From positions 1 through 48,320 of IMG/VR virus record IMGVR_UViG_3300034407_003054: a stretch of DNA of 48,320 bases. The stretch is one strand, 5' to 3'. The stretch comes from a virus. Below, in pieces: positions 6,316 through 33,388 of the stretch; position 1 is the first letter of the stretch, and each line of letters starts with the position of its first letter. Both the position numbers and the translations under genes were made by a program. The notes under the pieces were generated by a model. That model was not told the DNA's origin. It searched no databases and was given only the letters and a program-made list of their open reading frames with translations.

Positions 6316-6997
6316 TATCTTGGATAAAGGATACATTGAATTAGTGGATACACTTGGTGATGACTTAACACCTGTAAATGCCGCTCGTGTATCATTTGGT
6401 GGTAGGAGTGATAAATTTGAGAGTAAAGATAGAAAACTATCTAAGTTCTTAATTAAACACAAACACTTTTCACCATTCAGACATCAACATGGTATGTTTA
6501 TTATAAAGGCACCAGAGTTTGTAATGAGACAATGGTACAAACATGTCGTTGGTATTGAAACCACAAGTAATCATCCTACTAAAGACCATGCTTGGAATGA
6601 GATAAGTGGTCGTTATGTTCCATATGATGAGTTCTATGAACCAACAGAGTTTAGAAAACAATCAGAAGATAACAAACAGGCAAGTGATGGATTGATTGAA
6701 TTACAAGATAGTACAAGATTATTATGGATGACTGCACAACAAAATTCTATATCTGCATATAACGAAATGTTAAAACGAGGAATGGCAAAAGAACAAGCTC
6801 GTAGTATATTACCACTTACGGTTTATACAAAAGTATGGTGGACTGCATCATTTCAAAGTATTATGAACTTTATTGAGTTAAGAGATGAACCAACATCACA
6901 AGTGGAGATACAAGAATATGCACGAGGGTTAAAGGAAATCATGTTGGAGACATTTCCTGAAACTACTAAATTATGGAGTGAGATTTATTTAGACTAA
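6305..6997 (+). CDS. thyX: Flavin-dependent thymidylate synthase ThyX
   Basis: ThyX makes dTMP from dUMP using methylenetetrahydrofolate, FAD and NADPH. The 230-residue protein carries FSPFRH (55-60), RQWYKH (75-80) and WNEISGRY (97-104). These are the ThyX blocks, but the usual contiguous RHRxxSxNExSxRY signature is split: about 11 extra residues separate the RQW..H part from the NExSxRY part. The C-terminal RSILPLTVYTKVWWT block, with its conserved Arg and Leu, is normal. I chose the ATG at 6305 because AGGAG lies 8 nt upstream; a longer reading from GTG 6296 would put the start on the ribosome site itself. The gene overlaps the nucleotidyltransferase gene by 11 nt and ends in TAATG with the next gene. 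Confidence 0.88.
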   Translation: MKIDILDKGYIELVDTLGDDLTPVNAARVSFGGRSDKFESKDRKLSKFLIKHKHFSPFRHQHGMFIIKAPEFVMRQWYKHVVGIETTSNHPTKDHAWNEISGRYVPYDEFYEPTEFRKQSEDNKQASDGLIELQDSTRLLWMTAQQNSISAYNEMLKRGMAKEQARSILPLTVYTKVWWTASFQSIMNFIELRDEPTSQVEIQEYARGLKEIMLETFPETTKLWSEIYLD

Positions 6998-7881
6998 TGA
7001 AAGGTTGGATATTCACAACGCAAAACACACCATCATACGAAACAAAAAGGTTACTTGAATGTTTTGATAATGAAGGTATAGAATGTTTTTCTGTACATCC
7101 TAATAGTGTGGATATATTTATCAGTAAAGATAATAAAAAATCTGTGTTAGTAGATAATGAATATACATCTATTCCTGATTTTGTAATACCAAGAGTTGGA
7201 AGTGCAACCACATATTATCAGAAAGCAGTATACAGACATTTAGAACGAATGGGTGTGTTATTTATTAATGGTAGTGATGCAATTGATAATGTAAAAGATA
7301 AACTTTACACTATGCAAATATTATCACAAAATAATATTCCACATCCAAAAACAATGTTGGTTAAGAATCCAATTGATTCAAGTTATGTAGAAAGAAACAT
7401 CGGATTTCCTATTGTGGTTAAATCACTAAGTGGTACTCACGGAAAGGGTGTTTATCTTGCAGATAATAAAAGAAACTTTGAACAATTAGTAGAGATGATG
7501 GAACAATTTAATGATAGATTTAATATCATCTTACAAGAGTTTGTTAAGGATTCACATGGAAAAGATTTAAGAATTATCGTAGTAGGTGGTAAAGTTATTG
7601 GAGCAATGAAAAGAGAATCAACCGATGGTGATTTCAGAGCTAATGTTACACGAGGTGGTGGAGCAAAACCAGTAGAACTTGATGAACAAATGGAATATCT
7701 CGCATTAGAATCTACAAAGATATTAGGATTAGATATCGGTGGTGTAGATTTATTATATGATGGTGATAGTTACAAAATATGTGAGGTTAATTCTTCACCT
7801 GGTTTCAATGGAATGGAAAAATATACTGAAATAAGAGTTGCCGAACAGATAGTTACTTATGTAAAAAATAAATTAAATTAA
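6997..7881 (+). CDS. RimK-like ATP-grasp ligase
   Basis: A 294-residue ATP-grasp enzyme. An N-terminal pre-ATP-grasp part (1-95) with PDFVIPRVG is followed by DKLYTMQILSQNNIPHPKT (about 104-122), the K-loop FPIVVKSLSGTHGKGV (about 134-149), the QEFV segment, DLRIIVVGGKVIGAMKR (about 193-209) and the metal-binding end GVDLLY...ICEVNSSPGF. This order is that of RimK/LysX glutamate ligases, which add glutamate or another amino acid to a protein C-terminus, lysine-biosynthesis carrier or cofactor using ATP. All catalytic features appear intact. Start and stop are both TAATG overlaps with neighbours. Target unknown; the adjacent genes do not include an obvious carrier protein. Confidence 0.82.
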   Translation: MKGWIFTTQNTPSYETKRLLECFDNEGIECFSVHPNSVDIFISKDNKKSVLVDNEYTSIPDFVIPRVGSATTYYQKAVYRHLERMGVLFINGSDAIDNVKDKLYTMQILSQNNIPHPKTMLVKNPIDSSYVERNIGFPIVVKSLSGTHGKGVYLADNKRNFEQLVEMMEQFNDRFNIILQEFVKDSHGKDLRIIVVGGKVIGAMKRESTDGDFRANVTRGGGAKPVELDEQMEYLALESTKILGLDIGGVDLLYDGDSYKICEVNSSPGFNGMEKYTEIRVAEQIVTYVKNKLN

Positions 7882-15466: not shown

Positions 15467-15644
15467 AAAGAGAAAATACCATAGTGAAAAAGAAAGACGA
15501 GATGCTCAAAGAAAATGGCAGATGGAACATTACAAAAGAAATGCAGATGAGATAAGAGCAAAGGCTCGTCAAAAATATCGTGATAAGAAAAGAAAAGAGT
15601 TTTATGACAAGAAAGTACAAGATATGTATGGGAACATTGAGTGA
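15459..15644 (+). CDS. Small, very basic helical protein
   Basis: A 61-residue protein, almost all Lys, Arg, Glu, Gln and Tyr (MGRKRKYHSEKERRDAQRKW at the start, then a KARQKYRDKKRKEFYDKK stretch). It is likely one long basic helix and resembles the DNA-contacting helical part of HNH proteins without the HNH core. It overlaps RNase H by 8 nt and the radical SAM gene by 4 nt (GTGA), so it is embedded in the operon. A nucleic-acid-binding role is inferred from composition only. Confidence 0.5.
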   Translation: MGRKRKYHSEKERRDAQRKWQMEHYKRNADEIRAKARQKYRDKKRKEFYDKKVQDMYGNIE

Positions 15645-16771
15645 GTAAAAGTAAAACATTTTGTCCCTTACCTTTTGTACATTTGTATGCACAACCTTCA
15701 GGTCATGTGAAACCTTGTTGTATTGCAGAAACTATACATACTCACAATTTAAACAAAGAATCCATAGGTGAAGTATTTAATTCTGAAGAGATGAAGAAAC
15801 TTCGTATGGATATGTTAAATGGTGAGAGAAACAAATTATGTGACATTTGTTATCTCGCAGAGGATAGAGGTGAGGTAAGTGCACGACAAGGATTTTTAGA
15901 ACCAGATAACAATGAATTTGAAATACCAAAGACTACTGATGGTGAAGTTCCATTAGAGTTTCAGTATATTGATATTAGGTTTTCAAATCAATGTAATTTT
16001 AAATGTAGAACATGTTGTCATGATTTCTCATCATCTTGGTATGAACCTGAAATGTTATTAGGTGGAATATCACCTGATGTTAATAAGGTTATTAAAGTAG
16101 AAAATAACTTTATGGAAAATCTTAAGAAACATTTGGGTAAACTTAAGAAGATATATTTTGCAGGTGGTGAACCTTTGATTATGCCAGAACACATGGATAT
16201 CCTAAAGTTTGTTACTGATAATGAATTAAAATTACATTTACATTATAATTCTAACATGTCTACTTTAAAATACCAAGAGGAATCATTGTTCAAATATTGG
16301 AACAAGATAAAAGAAAAAGGTACTATCTATATTGCAGTATCTTGTGATGGTTTATATGACTTAGGTGAATATATCAGAGTAGGTTTCAATCATGATAAGT
16401 TCGTAAAGAATATAGAAAAATTAAAAGAAAATGATATTCACTATGGAATTCAATATACCGTATCCACATATAACATACATCACATATTTGAATCAATTGA
16501 ACAATTCCTTGATTTAGGTATTATTGAGAGTACCGATGATATATCATTTCATTATGCATGGGCACCTGATGGAGTATGTATACAGAATTTACATGAAAGA
16601 GATAAGTTCAAAGTTACAAATACCTTTGAAAAAAATATGAATAAAGTTACAGAAAAAACAAAAGTGGAGTTAAATAATATCCTAAAGTTTATGGGAACAG
16701 AAAGTGGAAATCATAAAGAAATAAAAGACTATTATGATAAAATAAATCGTGTGTTTCCGAAATCTAAATGA
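15641..16771 (+). CDS. Radical SAM protein with N-terminal twitch/SPASM-like part
   Basis: A 376-residue radical SAM enzyme. An N-terminal Cys-rich part (FCPLPFVHLYAQPSGHVKPC; Cys8, 26, 27, 67 and 70) may hold an auxiliary cluster, and the radical SAM motif CNFKCRTC has Cys118, 122 and 125, followed by YFAGGEPLIMPEH, the GGEP motif that binds SAM. This arrangement is the twitch-domain radical SAM family that I know from marine T4-like phages; reaction unknown, though SPASM-type members modify peptides. Translation starts at GTG 15641, overlapping the upstream TGA. It is inserted between RNase H and the helicase gene, which are DNA replication genes. Confidence 0.78.
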   Translation: MSKSKTFCPLPFVHLYAQPSGHVKPCCIAETIHTHNLNKESIGEVFNSEEMKKLRMDMLNGERNKLCDICYLAEDRGEVSARQGFLEPDNNEFEIPKTTDGEVPLEFQYIDIRFSNQCNFKCRTCCHDFSSSWYEPEMLLGGISPDVNKVIKVENNFMENLKKHLGKLKKIYFAGGEPLIMPEHMDILKFVTDNELKLHLHYNSNMSTLKYQEESLFKYWNKIKEKGTIYIAVSCDGLYDLGEYIRVGFNHDKFVKNIEKLKENDIHYGIQYTVSTYNIHHIFESIEQFLDLGIIESTDDISFHYAWAPDGVCIQNLHERDKFKVTNTFEKNMNKVTEKTKVELNNILKFMGTESGNHKEIKDYYDKINRVFPKSK

Positions 16772-20338: not shown

Positions 20339-20364
20339 ACAAGTAAACAAACAAGGAGATGATT

Positions 20365-23103
20365 ATGAACTATCGTAATCTTATCGCATCTGTAGTACTT
20401 ATGACTGGATTGTTCGCACAATCTATTCACGGAGTTATTACTGATGTAGACTCAAATCCACTTGAAGGAGCTAATGTTGTAGTTGTTGGGACAGATTTAG
20501 GTGCAGTATCTAATGAATTAGGTATCGCACATATTGAAATTCCAGCTGGAACCTACGATGTAACTGCTTCTTTTATTGGTTACTCTACTCTAACTCAATC
20601 AGTTGTAGTTGGAGAGGGTATGGCTACATTAAATTTCATATTGGATTTTGATGTGGTTGAACTAACAGATGTAGAGGTGTTAGCATCTCGTGCATCTGAA
20701 ACTACACCTGTTGCTTACACTAATGTTAGTAAAGAAGAAATGGAAGTGAGATTAGGTTCTCAAGATATTCCAATGATTCTTAATACTACACCAAGTGTAT
20801 ATGCGACTCAACAAGGTGGTGGTGCGGGTGATGCTCGTATCAACATTCGTGGTTTCAATCAAAGAAATGTTGCAGTGATGATTAATGGTGTTCCCCAAAA
20901 TGATATGGAGAATGGATGGGTTTATTGGTCTAATTGGGATGGTGTAGGTGATGCTACATCTTCAATTCAGGTTCAAAGAGGTCTATCAGCTGTTAATCTT
21001 GCTACACCTTCTATTGGTGGAACTATGAATATAATTACCGACCCAACATCATTTGAAAAGGGTGGGAAGTTCAAACAAGAAGCTGGTGATGGTGGTTTTC
21101 TGAAAACTACTTTCAACTATAATACTGGTCTCATTTTAAATGACAAGTTGGCTTTGAGTGGAACTATTGTTCGTAAAACTGGTGATGGAATCATTGATGG
21201 AACTTGGACAGACGCTTGGGCATACTACTTTGGTGGTAGTTATGCAGTAAGTGAAAACCAACGATTTGAATTATATGCCATCGGTGCTCCACAACGACAT
21301 GGACAGAATCTATACAAACAGAATATTGCAACTTACTCACAAGAGTTAGCTGGTGATACAGATGGATATGATACTGATGCATTTGCAGAAGGTAACAAAT
21401 TCCAAACTGAAGCTGGTAGATTTTTCAATCAGAATGTCGCACCAATTGACCCATCATATACAGGTAAACAATATTGGTATATGTATGGTGCAAATAAATC
21501 CAATAGGTTCAACAAGAACTTCTTGAACGAAAGAGAAAACTTCTTCCATAAACCATTAGTGAATTTAAATCACTTCTTAACTATCAATGATAAAACAAGA
21601 TTAAGTTCTGTTTTATATTGGAGTGGTGGTTCTGGTGGTGGTACTGGTACATATGGTAGTGTATCAAGACAACCAGCAGTTGAAGGAGAAAGATGGTATG
21701 CAAGTTCACCTTGGACTTGGGATTGGAATGCAGAGATTGCACAAAATTCCGACAACATTGATGAGAACTTTTCTACTACTGAAAATCGTTCAACAGGAAT
21801 TCTTCGTAATTCTATCAACAGACAAGATACATATGGTTTGATTTCAAAATTAAACTACGATGTAAGTGATGTTTTAGCATTACAAGTTGGATTAGATTGG
21901 AGAACTGCTCGTATAGAACACGCTCGTGAAGTTCGTGATTTATTGGGTGGTGATTATTATGTTGATTATGCAGACGATAACTTTGAAGAAGGTAAAGTCG
22001 TTAGACTCGGTGACGAGATTGCATATCACAATGAAACAACCGTAGATTGGATTGGTGGATTTGTCCAAGGTAACTACACAACAGAAAAACTAAACCTATA
22101 TGGTATGGGTGGTGTTTCTTCTATTGAGTATAGTTATCAAGACCATTTCACTATAGAGGATGCAGTAGTAACTGCAGACCCAATCACTACTTACCAAGTT
22201 AAAGGTGGTGCATTATATAATGTAAATGAGAACCTTGGAGTATTCATCAATAGTGGATATGTCCAAAAGGCTCCCATTTTAGATAATGTTATTACTTTTG
22301 ATGGAACCGTAGCAACCGACCCTGATAATGAGAAATTCTTACATAATGAGTTTGGTGCAAACTTCGGTACACAAAAACTTGGAGTTAGAGTTAGTGCATA
22401 CAATACTGATTGGCAAGATAGGAACCTTACAAAATCTGTACAAACAGGTCAAGGTTCATCAGGTGATACTGATGTTATCTTCCTAAAAGGTGTAAATCAG
22501 AAACACCAAGGTCTTGAGATTGAAACTAAGATTCAACCAAATGATATGGTAGAACTTGACTTAATCGCAAGTTTTGGTAATTGGAAATTTGATGGTGATG
22601 CCGATGGTACTTACCAAGAAAATGAGTACAATGATGAAGGCCAAGTGATTGGTTATCAGACTACTGATTATGCATATGCACTTGATGGATTATATGTTGG
22701 TGATATGCCACAGACTGCCTATATTTTAGGTGTTACTCTTAAACCGATTAAAGGATTAAGATTACAGGCATTGTACAAAACATATGACAAAAACTATTCT
22801 GATTGGTCGCCATCAGCTCGTGAATTTGACGGAACGAATGACGACGCAGATAGAAGTCAAGTATGGGAAGCCCCAGGTTACTCAAAACTTGACTTACACG
22901 CATCATATAAACTTCCTATCAAGGGATACGACATTTCTTTAAATGCTCATGTATTCAACGCACTTGATGAAGTATTTGTACAAGATGCAGTTGATAATAG
23001 TCAATACAATGGTTATGGTTCTAAGGAACACTTAGCACATAACGCAGAAGTATTCTTGGGTACACCAAGATATGCAAACATTGGAGTTTCTATTAACTTC
23101 TAA
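20365..23103 (+). CDS. TonB-dependent outer-membrane receptor
   Basis: A 912-residue complete TonB-dependent receptor. Residues 1-19 (MNYRNLIASVVLMTGLFAQS) form a Sec signal peptide; 20-95 is a carboxypeptidase-regulatory-like beta domain (GVITDVDSNPLEGANVVVVG); a TonB-box-like ELTDVEVLA lies near 99-107; the plug spans about 115-230 with INIRGFNQRNVAVMINGVPQ; the rest is a 22-strand-type barrel ending in NIGVSINF with the terminal Phe of the BAM signal. Such receptors import scarce nutrients in FCB bacteria. ATG 20365 fits AAGGAG at 20353-20358; ATG 20359 directly abuts it. Ala GCT and Arg CGT codons look commoner than in the neighbouring phage genes, which suggests capture from a host. A terminator follows. 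Confidence 0.93.
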   Translation: MNYRNLIASVVLMTGLFAQSIHGVITDVDSNPLEGANVVVVGTDLGAVSNELGIAHIEIPAGTYDVTASFIGYSTLTQSVVVGEGMATLNFILDFDVVELTDVEVLASRASETTPVAYTNVSKEEMEVRLGSQDIPMILNTTPSVYATQQGGGAGDARINIRGFNQRNVAVMINGVPQNDMENGWVYWSNWDGVGDATSSIQVQRGLSAVNLATPSIGGTMNIITDPTSFEKGGKFKQEAGDGGFLKTTFNYNTGLILNDKLALSGTIVRKTGDGIIDGTWTDAWAYYFGGSYAVSENQRFELYAIGAPQRHGQNLYKQNIATYSQELAGDTDGYDTDAFAEGNKFQTEAGRFFNQNVAPIDPSYTGKQYWYMYGANKSNRFNKNFLNERENFFHKPLVNLNHFLTINDKTRLSSVLYWSGGSGGGTGTYGSVSRQPAVEGERWYASSPWTWDWNAEIAQNSDNIDENFSTTENRSTGILRNSINRQDTYGLISKLNYDVSDVLALQVGLDWRTARIEHAREVRDLLGGDYYVDYADDNFEEGKVVRLGDEIAYHNETTVDWIGGFVQGNYTTEKLNLYGMGGVSSIEYSYQDHFTIEDAVVTADPITTYQVKGGALYNVNENLGVFINSGYVQKAPILDNVITFDGTVATDPDNEKFLHNEFGANFGTQKLGVRVSAYNTDWQDRNLTKSVQTGQGSSGDTDVIFLKGVNQKHQGLEIETKIQPNDMVELDLIASFGNWKFDGDADGTYQENEYNDEGQVIGYQTTDYAYALDGLYVGDMPQTAYILGVTLKPIKGLRLQALYKTYDKNYSDWSPSAREFDGTNDDADRSQVWEAPGYSKLDLHASYKLPIKGYDISLNAHVFNALDEVFVQDAVDNSQYNGYGSKEHLAHNAEVFLGTPRYANIGVSINF

Positions 23104-26954: not shown

Positions 26955-28174
26955 TGTATTTATCGTACTTTGACAAATTCTATGATATGGAACCTTATCT
27001 TTTCATAGATGAGGTTGAGTGGGAGTATATCAAAAACACCTTTGATAAACAAGATGTAAGAGAGAGTCTTGCAAAGGTCGCGATGTCCTACCCACCACCA
27101 TACATGGATATATCCGAAAAGGATGCATTAAAACAACTTCAGAAACTAAAAGGAATGAGACATAATGAAATTTTAGTTGAAGGAGAATGGTTTGCTCGTG
27201 AGGGTACAGAGTACAGATATGATTTAACTTTTGAGGGTAAACAACAATACTTCAAAAGAAATAATACAGGTAATGATTCAAGTAATTATTTCCAACAGAA
27301 GAATCGTTGGAGTGTTGATGGTACAATTGCACCTGGCCCACATAGAACATGGGAAAGTCATAAGTTTATGACAACATTAATTGGGTCTGCATACTCTCTA
27401 AAGTTACCTAAGATTGATAAGAGTGCATTTCGTGTAATGATTGGATTGAGAAAATATATTTGTTCTCAATTTAAACCAAATGTTGCAAAGGTATTGTATG
27501 ATAAGTTAGAGAGTAAAAGTATCTTAGACTTTAGTGCAGGTTGGGGTGATAGACTTGCAGGATTCTATGCAAGTGAAACAGGTGAGTTTTACATGGGTAT
27601 AGACCCACGAAAAGAAAATCATCCCATCTATGAAGAACAGAAACAATTTTATGATAAACATAGAACTATGTTTGAAGTTCCTAAGAAAAGTTTATTTATA
27701 GAATCACCTGCAGAGGACTTTGAATACAAAGAAAATATGTATGATACCGTATTTACATCACCACCTTACTTTAGTGTTGAGAGATATAGTTATGATGATA
27801 CTCAGAGTTGGGTAAGATATAAAGATATTGATACATGGAATACTCAGTTCTTACAAAAAACATTAGAAAAAATCTGGCCTTCTATAAAAAGTGGTGGATA
27901 TTTATTAGTGAATATTGCAGATGTATTTGCACGAACAGGTGGACAAAGAAACATGGTAGAGATATGTAATCCTATGAATGATTTCTTAAGTACACTTAGT
28001 GATTCAGAGTATCAAGGTTGTATTGGTATGGAGATGGCAAAGAGACCGAATAGTGGTGGTGCAGGAATGGCACGAGAGTCAGATGAAAGGTTTCAAGACT
28101 CTACAATAAAAAGAGCAGAAGAAACTAAAGATAAAAGATTTTGTGAACCAATTTGGATTTGGAGAAAGTTATAA
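26954..28174 (+). CDS. DNA methyltransferase-like protein (SPPY motif)
   Basis: A 406-residue Rossmann-fold methyltransferase. SILDFSAGWGDRLAG (about 189-203) is the SAM-binding motif I, GIDPRKEN is motif II, and VFTSPPYFSVERY (about 268-280) is the motif IV SPPY catalytic loop of amino-methyltransferases acting on adenine N6 or cytosine N4. The N-terminal 150 residues could recognise the target. No restriction enzyme is adjacent, so it probably protects phage DNA or modifies it for other reasons. It is coupled to gp45 and gp44 on both sides by TAATG overlaps, an unexpected place between clamp and loader. Confidence 0.75.
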   Translation: MYLSYFDKFYDMEPYLFIDEVEWEYIKNTFDKQDVRESLAKVAMSYPPPYMDISEKDALKQLQKLKGMRHNEILVEGEWFAREGTEYRYDLTFEGKQQYFKRNNTGNDSSNYFQQKNRWSVDGTIAPGPHRTWESHKFMTTLIGSAYSLKLPKIDKSAFRVMIGLRKYICSQFKPNVAKVLYDKLESKSILDFSAGWGDRLAGFYASETGEFYMGIDPRKENHPIYEEQKQFYDKHRTMFEVPKKSLFIESPAEDFEYKENMYDTVFTSPPYFSVERYSYDDTQSWVRYKDIDTWNTQFLQKTLEKIWPSIKSGGYLLVNIADVFARTGGQRNMVEICNPMNDFLSTLSDSEYQGCIGMEMAKRPNSGGAGMARESDERFQDSTIKRAEETKDKRFCEPIWIWRKL

Positions 28175-29097
28175 TGGATGAAATTAAAAATTCCCTATGG
28201 GTAGAAAAGTACCGACCTACAAGTCTTGACACTTATATAGGTAATGAACACCTAAAAAGTAAGGTCAAGTTATATCTTGAGAGTGGAGATTTACCACACC
28301 TTCTATTGTTTGGTAGGGCTGGTACAGGTAAAACCACTCTCGCTAAGTTACTCGTCAATAACATTGAATGTGATTATCTATACATCAATGCATCTGATGA
28401 GAGAAAACTTGAAATGGTAAGAGACAAAGTAAAAAACTTTGCCTCTACTATTGGGTTTTCAAATATGAAAGTTGTGATTCTTGATGAGGCAGATTACATT
28501 ACACCTGCATCACAGGCCGCTCTTCGTAATCTTATGGAAACTTTCTCAAAACATTGTAGGTTTATCTTAACTTGTAATTATGTTGAGAGAATCATTGACC
28601 CAATACAATCAAGGTGTCAATCATTTCAGATTATTCCACCAGATAGGAAACAAGTTGCAGTACATCTAAGTGATATCCTACAAAAAGAAAAGGTTAATGC
28701 AAAGGTTGATGATATTGTAACAATAGTTAATAGTGGTTTTCCTGATTTAAGAAGAGTAATCAATGGTGCACAGAGACAAGTCGTGGATGGTAAGTTGGTC
28801 ATTGATGAGGGAATGAGTATACAAAATGACTATAAGGTAAAGGTATTAGAGATACTCAAGACACAAGACAAAAAGAATTCTTTTAAGAATATAAGACAAG
28901 TACTGGCAGATTCAAAGGTAACAGATTTCTCTGATTTATTCAGATTGTTATTTGATACCGTAGATGATTGGGGTAAAGGTCATGTTGCAGAATGTATATT
29001 GGTATTAAGTCAATATCAACAAAGTGACGCAGTAGTAGTAGATAAAGAGATAAACATTATGGCGATGTTTATAGAAGTATTAGGAGTAATAAAATGA
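28174..29097 (+). CDS. 44: Clamp loader large subunit gp44
   Basis: A 307-residue AAA+ ATPase that opens the gp45 ring. Walker A GRAGTGKT is at 47-54, Walker B VILDEAD at 101-107, and the SRC motif (QSRCQSF) with the arginine finger near 148. ATG 28174 is chosen over TTG 28153 because GGAG lies 9 nt upstream and the ATG overlaps the preceding TAA. The start motif WVEKYRPTSLDTYIG is standard for RFC-type loaders. Its partner gp62 lies 3.9 kb downstream, separated by an accessory cassette. Confidence 0.93.
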   Translation: MDEIKNSLWVEKYRPTSLDTYIGNEHLKSKVKLYLESGDLPHLLLFGRAGTGKTTLAKLLVNNIECDYLYINASDERKLEMVRDKVKNFASTIGFSNMKVVILDEADYITPASQAALRNLMETFSKHCRFILTCNYVERIIDPIQSRCQSFQIIPPDRKQVAVHLSDILQKEKVNAKVDDIVTIVNSGFPDLRRVINGAQRQVVDGKLVIDEGMSIQNDYKVKVLEILKTQDKKNSFKNIRQVLADSKVTDFSDLFRLLFDTVDDWGKGHVAECILVLSQYQQSDAVVVDKEINIMAMFIEVLGVIK

Positions 29098-29324
29098 ATG
29101 ACGAAAGACAATATCAAGAACCATTAGATATTTCAAAGGCAGATACAATTCAATGTGAAGAGTGTGGAAACGCATCCTTTATACAATCGTTCTTTTTGAA
29201 AAGAGTATCAGCATTGATGAGTCCAAATGGTAAAGAAGCAATTATACCAATACAAGTATTCGCTTGTGGTAATTGTGGTTCAATACCAAAGAATATGATG
29301 AGTCAAATTCAACCGAGTGAGTAA
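29094..29324 (+). CDS. Zinc-ribbon protein
   Basis: A 76-residue protein with CEEC (about 21-24) and CGNC (about 56-59), a two-knuckle zinc ribbon with 31 residues between the knuckles. Such small ribbons follow clamp-loader genes in other T4-like marine phages as I remember them; in T4-type transcription, small zinc proteins can contact polymerase, but no function can be assigned here. It has TAGGAG before its start, overlaps gp44 by 4 nt, and its stop overlaps the next start. Confidence 0.65.
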   Translation: MNDERQYQEPLDISKADTIQCEECGNASFIQSFFLKRVSALMSPNGKEAIIPIQVFACGNCGSIPKNMMSQIQPSE

Positions 29325-30736
29325 TGTATACTAAAGTTGGAGATGGACTACAAGTAGTAAGTGGTGACATAGTTAAGAGTTTAGTTGGTTTAGAGAATCT
29401 AACATACAAGATGTCAGAAGAATTCAACTCTGAAAGACTATGGACACCATCTCATCTTTCCATGGACAATGCCTACAAGACAGGATACATGGAATCATTC
29501 TCACATCAAGTATCTATAATTAATTCATACCATGGTGAAGAAAAAGGAATGTGTTCACCTACAGGATGTTATCATTGTTATAGTTTCTTAAAAGATAAAA
29601 GTGTTACAGATAAATCTTATGTAATGACAAGTAAATGTACACGAATAGAAGAAGAGTGCAATGATTTAGAAAGAATGTTTAATTTCACTATATCAGAGAT
29701 AGTGTTTGTTGGTACTGAGAAATATTGTGAGGATAATTTAAATAAAGCAATGACTTTAACATCACAAATGTTAGACCAACTTGGTATCAAATATTTTTAT
29801 GAAGTTGCATCAGACCCATTCTTTGGTGATAAATCAGAGTTAAAAAGAAAAGTACAAATCAAAAGTGGTTCTAAAATTGAGATTAGAGCATGGATTCCTA
29901 ACGAGGATAGACATGTTGCAATAGGTTCATTTAATCTACATGGTAGGAAGTTTATTGATAAATTTAGTATACAAGATTCAGAGATGACTGCATGTTTTGG
30001 TTGGGGATTAGAAAGATTTGTAGATGTTGTAAGTAAGTATGACAAAACCATAGATGAAACTAAAATCAATTTCAACTTCAAAAATGATAACACTTTTATA
30101 CCTGAAATTAGAAAAAATATAATTGATGATTCTAATGGTTGGTTATGTGATAACCATCAGACATATTGGTTTGGTAGAAAACCTATACATGAATATGAAA
30201 TCCAAACACCAGATATTGGTGAGGTTGTCTATGAAGACATTGATACACTTGAACAACTTGATGGGTGGACATGGGAAATTCTACAAGGACTCAAAGAGTG
30301 GGACAGATTGAACATGAAGTGGATTAACGAAGAGACAAGAAAAACTTGGTTATGGGATTTAGAAACTGCAAAGAAAAGAATACAAGATGGACACAATTTA
30401 TGTGCAATGTTTTACGAGGGTAAACTGATACAATGGAATTGGTGGTTTATGGGTGAATTTACTTTTTATGACCATGAGTGGAATATTGATATGAACTTAC
30501 CTAAAGACCATTCTTATGGTGGATATTGGGCATGTTTACCTAAATACAGAACTTCAAGAAAACATGGTAAACTGATAGAACATTTCTACACTTATATTAC
30601 AAACTATCTTATTAGAAAGAATATAAAATATGACTTGGCATATGTTGATGGTTGGAATAATAAGGCAATCAGTATACACAAGAAAATGGGATATGTGGGT
30701 TACAATTGGATGAAAAATGAAAACTTTCTCAAATAA
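29324..30736 (+). CDS. Amino-acid:carrier-protein-ligase-like domain fused to GNAT acetyltransferase
   Basis: A 470-residue two-domain protein. Residues 1-240 match the class II synthetase-like amino acid:[carrier protein] ligases: GCYHCYS (81-87), KCTRIEE (104-110, motif 2), EVASDPFFGDK (160-170), a GSFNLHG segment (201-207) and MTACFGWGLERF (221-232, motif 3). In that family the order ACxPxYP, CFRHE, DVAxDPFFG, SFNYHQ, ACxGFGLER is the hallmark. The third zinc ligand (Cys before the SFN motif) is Ile here. Residues 355-465 form a GNAT domain, with KYRTSRKHGKLIEHF for CoA binding and NKAISIHKKMGYVGY at the end. I know of no described fusion of this kind. It probably activates an amino acid and acylates something. 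Confidence 0.72.
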   Translation: MYTKVGDGLQVVSGDIVKSLVGLENLTYKMSEEFNSERLWTPSHLSMDNAYKTGYMESFSHQVSIINSYHGEEKGMCSPTGCYHCYSFLKDKSVTDKSYVMTSKCTRIEEECNDLERMFNFTISEIVFVGTEKYCEDNLNKAMTLTSQMLDQLGIKYFYEVASDPFFGDKSELKRKVQIKSGSKIEIRAWIPNEDRHVAIGSFNLHGRKFIDKFSIQDSEMTACFGWGLERFVDVVSKYDKTIDETKINFNFKNDNTFIPEIRKNIIDDSNGWLCDNHQTYWFGRKPIHEYEIQTPDIGEVVYEDIDTLEQLDGWTWEILQGLKEWDRLNMKWINEETRKTWLWDLETAKKRIQDGHNLCAMFYEGKLIQWNWWFMGEFTFYDHEWNIDMNLPKDHSYGGYWACLPKYRTSRKHGKLIEHFYTYITNYLIRKNIKYDLAYVDGWNNKAISIHKKMGYVGYNWMKNENFLK

Positions 30737-30751
30737 TCAATATTTATAGAT

Positions 30752-32173
30752 ATGAATGATTCACAAAGACAAACTTACGCAAATTTATTAAAAGAAAAAA
30801 GTTTACAGGTAGGAAATCTGTTTACTGGTAGTGCTTATTGGGATAGTGAACATGAGGGTATGATATATTCCATGGATTGGATACCACAAAGTGGTTCAAT
30901 AAAACTATTAGAAATGAACACCAATACTGGACTAAGTGGTAGAATGAAACCATATTTTAATTTTAGTGAATTAGTAAGTCATATTACAAGTTCTGGTCAT
31001 AATACATGTACTTATTACGAAGACTATCTAAACTTTAATATAGAACCACAAAGAGTTGAAGACACTTTAGATATTTTTAGACAACAACTTAGTTCAAGTT
31101 TGTCATCTTCAGGATGTACATTTACTCACGAGTATAATTTATGGGATGAGATTATCCCAACGCCATCTTCAACACATTATGTATTAAGACAAGGACATTT
31201 AAATTATCATAATGTTGATATATTATGTGAGAACAAGACTACATTTCGTAATTTTATAACAGGTAGTTTAGGTGAAGATTTCTTTCCTGCATTTGGTAGT
31301 AATATTTCATCGTCATTCAGTAATCCAACAAATGTACCTGATGTTGTTATCAAAGACCCAACTGAAGATATGGGTGTGGGTGTATCTTTTACAGACTTTA
31401 CAGACGATAGGAATCAAATTTATAATAATCATAATTATGTAGAGGAATATATTGAACCTGAAATAGACAATAATAGATATAGATTATTTAGAAGTATTAT
31501 ATTGATTGGTAGTGGTAGTGTTAAATATTTAATAAAGAATCCAACTTACACAATTAACTATAGAAAATTTGGACAACCAAGTGGTTCAGTTACAATTGGT
31601 TCACAATCCACTAATATTTATGATACCAATAATATAAGAATATGGCAGACAGGACATTATGAAGGTAATACACCAGTATCAATGTCAGATGGTTCGGTAA
31701 AAACAATTGGTAGTATAGATGCAGGTGATGTGGTTAAGAGTGTAGTGGTAAACAACTATCCAAAAAGAAACACTGCATTCAAGTCATCAACAACCAATGC
31801 ATCTTGGCCTCAATTCATTCTTGATAAGGGTAATTGGACAGGTTCAATCGGTGAGTTAAGTGAATCAACAAGTTCAGTCAATAGTGTCCCACAAGTATAT
31901 TCATGGGGATATTATGAGTTAAATGGTTCTACAAGAGTAAATCCTGAAGATTCTATTATGGTTTATGATAATTCAAAATATCAATTCAAACCAATGAGAA
32001 ATGTTCAAGTTAACGATGTTTTTGTTACAAAAGGATTTGTTACACAATCAGTATCATCTATAAACTTAGTGACTTCTGAATCTATATTTTATTCATTAGA
32101 TTTAGAAACAGAAGATAGATATTTTGCAGGTGATGATACTAATTCGGTTATAACTTCCGATAGTTATTGGTAG
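30752..32173 (+). CDS. ATP-grasp-like domain fused to a Hint domain without nucleophile
   Basis: A 473-residue protein. Near the N-terminus, YSMDWIPQSGSIKLLEMNTN (39-58) looks like the metal-binding end of an ATP-grasp enzyme (E.N motif), while VIKDPTEDMGVGV (199-211) and YVEEYIEPE (229-237) look like its ATP-binding part; the order would be a circular permutation. Residues 300-473 match a Hint fold: GNTPVSMSDGSVKTIGSI, DAGDVV, VNPEDSIMVYD (HPxxV-like block), NVQVNDVFV and IFYSLDLETEDRYFAG. The splicing Cys/Ser at position 1 is His302, and no terminal His-Asn is present, so self-splicing is unlikely. No ribosome site is seen 15 nt after the synthetase-like gene. Confidence 0.55.
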   Translation: MNDSQRQTYANLLKEKSLQVGNLFTGSAYWDSEHEGMIYSMDWIPQSGSIKLLEMNTNTGLSGRMKPYFNFSELVSHITSSGHNTCTYYEDYLNFNIEPQRVEDTLDIFRQQLSSSLSSSGCTFTHEYNLWDEIIPTPSSTHYVLRQGHLNYHNVDILCENKTTFRNFITGSLGEDFFPAFGSNISSSFSNPTNVPDVVIKDPTEDMGVGVSFTDFTDDRNQIYNNHNYVEEYIEPEIDNNRYRLFRSIILIGSGSVKYLIKNPTYTINYRKFGQPSGSVTIGSQSTNIYDTNNIRIWQTGHYEGNTPVSMSDGSVKTIGSIDAGDVVKSVVVNNYPKRNTAFKSSTTNASWPQFILDKGNWTGSIGELSESTSSVNSVPQVYSWGYYELNGSTRVNPEDSIMVYDNSKYQFKPMRNVQVNDVFVTKGFVTQSVSSINLVTSESIFYSLDLETEDRYFAGDDTNSVITSDSYW

Positions 32174-32465: not shown

Positions 32466-32957
32466 ATGTATGTATTAGAACATAAAGAGATTCCATTTAG
32501 TAGAATGGAAGAGATAAAAGAAGATACACCAGAGTTAGATATTTTTTATGAACCTGATATGAAAAACTTTGAATACTATGATTCCGATGGAACACCAATA
32601 GGAATGTATATTATTTACAGAAATGATAAAAAAAATGTTGTTTGCGGTAGGAACTATTATATTTATAAACAACAGAGAACTAAAGGTTGGGGTTTGAATT
32701 GTATACTATCTTGTATCAATTATTCCTTTCAATTATATCCAGATATTGATATATTTTGTTGGTCTACTCATGTAGGTAATAAAGTTATGGACAGAATATG
32801 TTCAAAGATATATGAGAAAACAAGGACAGAAACCAATAATCCAAATATATTTGGTTTCAATGAACCACCACCATCAGAGTTACATTCAGTTACACGAAAA
32901 TATATGGAAAACTTTAATAAAAAGTATCCAAAGGGTTTTAAAAGGTTTAAAATATGA
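32466..32957 (+). CDS. GNAT-like acyltransferase
   Basis: A 163-residue protein with the core of a GNAT fold: GTPIGMYIIYRNDKKNVVCG (strands 2-4), RTKGWGLNCILSCINYSF (about 70-87, the CoA-binding loop and helix), DIFCWSTHVGNKVMDRICSK (strand 5 and helix 4). The P-loop-like R.KGWG is close to the usual Q/RxxGxG/A. It may acylate the product or target of the cassette. It overlaps gp62 by 4 nt (ATGA). A second in-frame ATG lies at 32470; the first is used here. Confidence 0.6.
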   Translation: MYVLEHKEIPFSRMEEIKEDTPELDIFYEPDMKNFEYYDSDGTPIGMYIIYRNDKKNVVCGRNYYIYKQQRTKGWGLNCILSCINYSFQLYPDIDIFCWSTHVGNKVMDRICSKIYEKTRTETNNPNIFGFNEPPPSELHSVTRKYMENFNKKYPKGFKRFKI

Positions 32958-33388
32958 GTAAAGTTAAAGGTTTATTTGACCATGTAAAACAAATCACAAA
33001 TGTACAGAGTCCTACATATTGGGATACATTAAGTGAGGGTGATAAAAAGACATTTAGTAATTACATGATTCATAGATTTCTTAGTATGAAGTCAGAATGG
33101 ATTCAAGTTGTAAATGAGGTACAGAAATATTGGGAGTTGGCTCCTAAGAATGTGTATCAGTTTTATATTGATGTACTACCAAGAGGTAGAACTTTCCTTA
33201 AATACACAAAGTCAAAACATAAGTCAAAAGTAAATCCATGGGTTATGGAACACTTGACAGATTACTTTGAATGTAGTTCAAAAGAAGTAGATGATTACTT
33301 GGAGATATTGACACCACAACAAGTAAAGACAATCATAATGAAGTATGGTGTAGATGATAAACAATTAAAAACGATATGGAGTAAATAA
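32954..33388 (+). CDS. 62: Clamp loader small subunit gp62
   Basis: A 144-residue protein. The patterns IHRFLSMKSEWIQVVNEV, APKNVYQFYIDVLPRGRTF and DYFECSSKEVDDYLEILTPQ (residues about 38-120) fit the helical gp62 of T4-like marine phages, in which short helices end with a tripartite repeat. In T4 it completes the 4:1 gp44-gp62 loader. In T4 it directly follows gp44, whereas here five genes lie between them. Its stop overlaps the clpP start (TAATG). Confidence 0.72.
   Translation: MSKVKGLFDHVKQITNVQSPTYWDTLSEGDKKTFSNYMIHRFLSMKSEWIQVVNEVQKYWELAPKNVYQFYIDVLPRGRTFLKYTKSKHKSKVNPWVMEHLTDYFECSSKEVDDYLEILTPQQVKTIIMKYGVDDKQLKTIWSK

Follow-up and report, generated by a model that had tools for sequence, protein, structure and literature searches.

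The locus and its open reading frame

The window, by which we mean the whole stretch of 48,320 bases analysed here, is a marine bacterial virus record (IMGVR_UViG_3300034407_003054) whose replication genes are T4-like (clamp loader phrog_168). An open reading frame encoding a protein that, judged by eye, is rich in serine and glycine (Table 1) is situated after a clamp-loader gene (28153-29097) and before a gp62-like one (32954-33388; Phage_clamp_A in Pfam at E 0.0016, under the cut-off). Searches against Pfam, PHROGs and NCBIfam placed this protein in no family at the cut-off or at E 0.01.

Table 1. Coordinates of the ATP-grasp-Hint gene, its parts and its neighbours in the window
Feature	Position	Strand	Remarks
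Amino acid:[carrier protein] ligase-like protein (class II aaRS core) fused to GNAT-like C-terminal part	29324..30736	+	Upstream
ATP-grasp-Hint open reading frame	30752..32173	+	ATG at 30752, stop ends 32173, 473 aa
Circularly permuted ATP-grasp-like domain (~1-290), then non-splicing Hint domain (~297-473)			Basis: ORF, family alignment, structure/fold search
Residues 1-66, helix and two strands with metal motif D42...E54-x-N56	30752..30949	+	
E.N string LLEMNTNTGLS, residues 52-62	30905..30937	+	
Residues 71-147, alpha/beta segment	30962..31192	+	Basis: model secondary structure
Residues 154-290, ATP-binding part with K162, K201, E231	31211..31621	+	
Hint fold, residues 297-473	31640..32170	+	
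His302 (in WQTGHYEGNT), at splicing Cys/Ser position	31655..31657	+	VIA-align
NPED, residues 397-400, at block-B TxxH place, no His	31940..31951	+	
C-terminus NSVITSDSYW, without His-Asn	32141..32170	+	
GNAT-like protein	32466..32957	+	Downstream; weak Pfam Acetyltransf_1 E 0.044

A family of ATP-grasp-Hint proteins in uncultured viruses

Five IMG/VR contigs encode relatives with 81-93% identity to the window protein, and a further close relative is encoded by L197, a contig binned in a Flavobacteriales MAG, which is probably a phage contig because most of its neighbouring genes match the window at 90-100%. The reading frame is intact at full length in the five viral contigs and in this MAG-binned contig, with no stop or frameshift among the eight close members, and H302, E54 and N56 do not vary among the six close rows. 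Distant full-length homologues were recovered by two scans of viral contigs for the E.N motif together with an HMM, giving 26 distinct trimmed homologous proteins. The resulting alignment (A4) holds 24 Hint-bearing rows including the window, at 21-93% identity to it, and a 25th row, L220:2567-3337 (19% identity), an ATP-grasp-like partner without a Hint that carries D, N, N, Y, K and E at the six key columns and is omitted from all counts out of 24 and from the tree. Among the trimmed proteins, L233 (cut at its N-terminus) and L297 (like L249) were left unaligned, and L006 is the window itself. The full gene to which the 25th row belongs, L220:2567-3904, encodes a nucleotidyltransferase fused to the ATP-grasp-like part, in which N replaces E54, and it adjoins a C39-like protein and an ATP-grasp-Hint gene.

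Measured from the first Met, the homologues of the T4-like contigs are 450-474, 661 (cut by the contig end), 752-755 and 892 residues long; more remote are L302 and L226/L266, which come from other contigs. Of 395 Bacteroidota genomes searched, G001, the MAG holding the phage contig, was the only one in which the match to the family profile reached well past the Hint, and the weak matches of the N-terminal part to L204, L205 and L206 (Bacteroidota) were dismissed as chance on inspection. Automatically chosen peptide patterns returned nothing beyond the same five contigs, a KDP-x-E motif scan gave no further full-length homologue, a Hint motif scan gave none among the matches listed, and tblastn against annotated phages gave Hint matches only, or none. 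The ATP-grasp-Hint fusion recurs across a family of uncultured viruses.

The permuted ATP-grasp-like part

In an ATP-grasp domain the metal motif normally sits at the C-terminal end, and the GSP_synth and CP_ATPgrasp_2 families are circularly permuted. In the window protein the metal motif stands ahead of K162 and K201, which is the permuted order. A preliminary description made from the sequence alone had already proposed this reversal, correctly placing the E.N string at residues 52-62 and the ATP strings (VIKDP...YVEEYIEPE) within 199-237, and key residues, fold search and homologues all agree with it: D42, E54, N56, K162 and K201 are each kept in 24/24 aligned rows, E231 is present in 22 with Q in the other two, and D42, N56, T57 and N58 are invariant across all 25 rows of A4.

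An AlphaFold model built on A4 reached a mean pLDDT of 69.6 and a pTM of 0.68, with residues 186-229 below a pLDDT of 50; a model from six close sequences (pLDDT 31.3) was of no use. In the former, residues 71-147 form a segment that may be pre-ATP-grasp-like. Using Foldseek we matched the model to yeast glutathione synthase (1m0w) at E 9.6e-5 over 421 columns, but with a TM-score of 0.29 and an rmsd of 12.5, and to YgiC (7uka; E 5.7e-3) and human glutathione synthetase (E 7.1e-3). Likewise, hhalign of the N-terminal part against GSP_synth (10 sequences) gave a score of 32.0 and E 0.0018, albeit with a probability of only 14.8%; the alignment falls on the D...E.N motif, and 37 unrelated viral alignments used as controls scored at most 23.2. 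Glutathione synthetase, YgiC and GSP_synth (PF03738) share with the window protein the placement of D...E.N before the ATP part, but the latter has a low TM-score and a fused C-terminal Hint, and neither it nor the family members matched GSP_synth in a Pfam search. Members of CP_ATPgrasp_2 also carry D...E.N ahead of the ATP-binding part; however, there was no Pfam match to CP_ATPgrasp_1 or CP_ATPgrasp_2 (for the latter, PF14403, zero matches in the window record at E up to 10), and the profile comparison, made with CP_ATPgrasp_2 only, gave a score of 17.2, within the control range, and a probability of 0.2%. Across 25 members, the sole ATP-grasp-type Pfam match was to CPSase_L_D2, in one member at E 0.11, and the VIA-align table holds Hint rows only and is silent on this part of the protein. 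The comparison with permuted ATP-grasp families that had been suggested came out divided, the 1m0w match speaking for such a fold and the low TM-score and the CP_ATPgrasp_2 result against. Taken together, the domain order is permuted, an ATP-grasp fold is likely and a ligase activity is predicted.

A first Hint domain that lacks the splicing residues

The cutting or joining of proteins is what Hint domains are known for. That the C-terminal module is a Hint, as first proposed, was confirmed by the match of the A4 profile to the Tetrahymena BIL2 Hint (6tmm, E 1.1e-8) and to a Clostridium BIL domain (2lwy, 5.4e-6), and by the predicted fold, which VIA-align superposed on BIL2 (6y75) with a Z of 19.1 and an rmsd of 1.8 over 137 residues. 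Where named, the BFVD matches shown were mostly Hint or intein-bearing proteins. VIA-align places residue 302 on position 1 of several inteins and on the opening residue (258) of a hedgehog fragment, so that the His seen earlier at the place of the splicing Cys/Ser is indeed there. The fold is therefore that of BIL domains, hedgehog Hint and inteins, but the window clade lacks Cys/Ser1, the block-B His and the terminal Asn; the absence of a terminal His-Asn had likewise been read correctly.

Cys is present at the nucleophile column of the first Hint in 0/24 rows, which instead have H (nine), T (12) and S, F and K (once each). Conservation of His302, proposed as a check, held in part: it is kept in all eight rows of the window clade (tree support 100/100) and in L226, but T, S, F or K stands in the other rows, and since the residue varies outside the clade it is not a general catalytic His. 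The first Hint of L220 has Ser at this column, so a first nucleophile is still possible there. The block-B His (column 400), whose absence the preliminary description did not mention, is found in none of the 24 rows, with a gap in L220 and L226 and a His at 397 instead in L005. Terminal HN is present in the first Hint of 15/24 rows and in 0/8 of the window clade, and in a midpoint-rooted tree of the 24 rows, which has several long branches, HN was lost twice, in the window clade and in L226. The residue following HN in the A4 rows is I, L or P, and there is hence no +1 nucleophile. Splicing without Cys1 occurs in inteins of classes 2 and 3, as described in excerpts of PMC7664689, and loss of the Cys alone is therefore no proof of inactivity; in the window clade, the absent Asn and C-terminal flank are a stronger point for inactivity than the Cys loss.

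Over 28 pairs of the eight close members, mean dN/dS was 0.16 for residues 1-291 and 0.35 for residues 297-473, with a Hint value of 0.62 for the window against L222. The Hint is under purifying selection, yet is less constrained than the N-terminal part, and it looks like an old, selected domain and not one in recent decay.

Additional Hints in longer homologues

Longer homologues bear two to three more Hints that retain Cys1 and TxxH. Cys, TxxH and HN are all present in the second Hint of 14/14 distinct long proteins and in the third Hint of 13/13 proteins that are not cut, while the fourth Hint (four proteins) has Cys and TxxH and no HN. The occurrence of a dead first Hint and complete later ones in the same chains argues against misalignment.

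Several observations were made alongside. Cys-rich tails follow the Hint in L302:5025-6680 and L266:4798-6747, and are possible substrates of Hint cleavage. The second Hint of one homologue (L263:3825-4274) matched the Pfam AXH domain (ataxin-1/HBP1) at E 2e-28, and phmmer with the same Hint returned ataxin-1 at 1.2e-9 alongside BIL domains; the AXH domain may, judging from these matches, be a Hint that lost splicing, and no paper on an AXH-intein connection was found in the open-licence literature searched. A complete Hint (Cys, TGEHH, VHN), with 25% identity to the window's Hint, is encoded by L202:473-1906 (G001:C66), in the same MAG as L197.

The gene neighbourhood

The upstream ligase-like protein matched NCBIfam NF005479 at E 5.7e-27, under its cut-off, and the GNAT label of its C-terminal part comes from a weak blastp match to a neighbour in L207 (29%) and from reading of the sequence. 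A gene of this type adjoins the ATP-grasp-Hint gene in 5/5 close contigs and in L197, and on the downstream side the window clade has a GNAT-like gene, with an additional AMP-binding (ANL) protein or GNAT-AMP-binding fusion in four contigs. Among 21 homologue loci, 13 have a GNAT gene immediately upstream and four more have one two to four genes upstream, and in 15/21 the next gene downstream encodes a 2OG-Fe oxygenase; the 21 loci include many near-copies, and the GNAT and 2OG labels have Pfam support. The window clade has no 2OG genes at the cassette place. Radical SAM, weakly sulfotransferase-like and C39-like genes are also present in some lineages, and in T4-like contigs the gene is surrounded by genes for replication and modification. 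The cassette neighbourhoods yielded no substrate gene. From its gene content, the neighbourhood resembles a peptide- or protein-modifying cassette.

Elsewhere the window encodes, all on the + strand, a second and canonical RimK-type ATP-grasp ligase (6997-7881; above the TIGR00768 cut-off), a Twitch-domain radical SAM protein (15641-16771; above the NF033640 cut-off) and a 914-residue TonB-dependent-receptor-like protein with CarboxypepD_reg_2 and Plug domains (20359-23103). The gene for the last of these lies in the highest-G+C stretch of the window, and its end recurs in L007 and L010.

Discussion

Both folds described here are known. The open-licence literature searched, some of it in excerpt, yielded neither the ATP-grasp-Hint fusion nor a Hint dead throughout a family: the fusion was not met in the excerpts of PMC7824862, PMC4431377, PMC7664689 and PMC2213659, nor by term search in PMC8939145, and PMC4431377 contains none of the strings 'hint', 'intein' and 'permut'. 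The R2K ATP-grasp peptide ligases of phages are proposed, in excerpts of PMC7824862 and PMC4431377, to modify host proteins, and have GNAT neighbours in some bacteria; however, no R2K family was among the profile matches of the window protein.

Our favoured reading, which we hold to be reasonably probable, is that the gene encodes a phage permuted ATP-grasp ligase, its domains ordered as in eukaryotic glutathione synthase and YgiC/GspS, that has an old, dead Hint as a fixed part and works in a modification cassette. The ligase would activate a carboxylate as an acyl phosphate and then join it to an amine, forming an amide bond to a peptide or protein substrate. A putative binding role for the dead Hint is plausible, the domain serving as a docking or scaffold part that would hold or position the peptide or protein substrate. 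In the long relatives the later, complete Hints would cleave themselves off, as their intact motifs suggest, and the same core of ATP-grasp and dead Hint would remain. GNAT and, according to lineage, an amino-acid:carrier-protein ligase, an ANL adenylase, 2OG-Fe oxygenases and radical SAM enzymes would be the partners with which the ligase modifies a peptide or protein during infection. A more elaborate version, which we regard as improbable, has Hint modules replacing leader peptides and proteases, so that the dead Hint docks the substrate and live Hints release peptides for modification; the released peptides would then be linkers or the Cys-rich tails of L302 and L266, to be modified by the ligase, GNAT, 2OG oxygenases and radical SAM enzyme.

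It could instead be that the Hint is what is left of a self-processing domain in decay and that only the ATP-grasp part matters in the window lineage, an option that the preliminary description had left standing. The separate losses of His-Asn and the faster evolution of the Hint, most evident between the window and L222, would fit such decay. However, Cys1 and the block-B His are already absent from every one of the 24 rows, the Hint fold is well predicted, the eight close members have no frameshift or stop and mean dN/dS is well below 1, and we therefore consider recent decay disfavoured and this explanation unlikely. Rather doubtful, too, is the notion that the first Hint is still reactive, by Asn-type C-terminal cleavage in the relatives with HN and atypically, through His302 or in a class 2/3-like manner, in the window clade. 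HN persists in most rows, complete Hints follow the first one in long relatives, and class 2/3 inteins offer a precedent for splicing without Cys1 (PMC7664689, in excerpt); yet in the window clade the terminal Asn is lacking and the chain stops with the Hint, residue 302 is variable beyond the clade, the block-B His is missing, and I, L or P after HN leaves no +1 nucleophile.

We think it very unlikely that the product is a virion or injected protein in which the ATP-grasp-like fold is a structural or binding module and no ligase. The serine/glycine-rich composition, the similar Hints found in phage tail proteins and a tail-fibre-like gene adjoining the L266 homologue point that way, but the metal ligands and the two ATP lysines are kept despite low overall identity, and the company of replication and modification genes in T4-like contigs also speaks against it.

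On the reading of a ligase with a fixed, dead Hint, a self-cutting module has apparently been kept for another job. A Hint that lacks its splicing residues family-wide, is under selection and is fused to a predicted enzyme makes the use of the non-splicing Hint fold testable, and the conserved cassette around it suggests that marine phages have a modification pathway not yet described.
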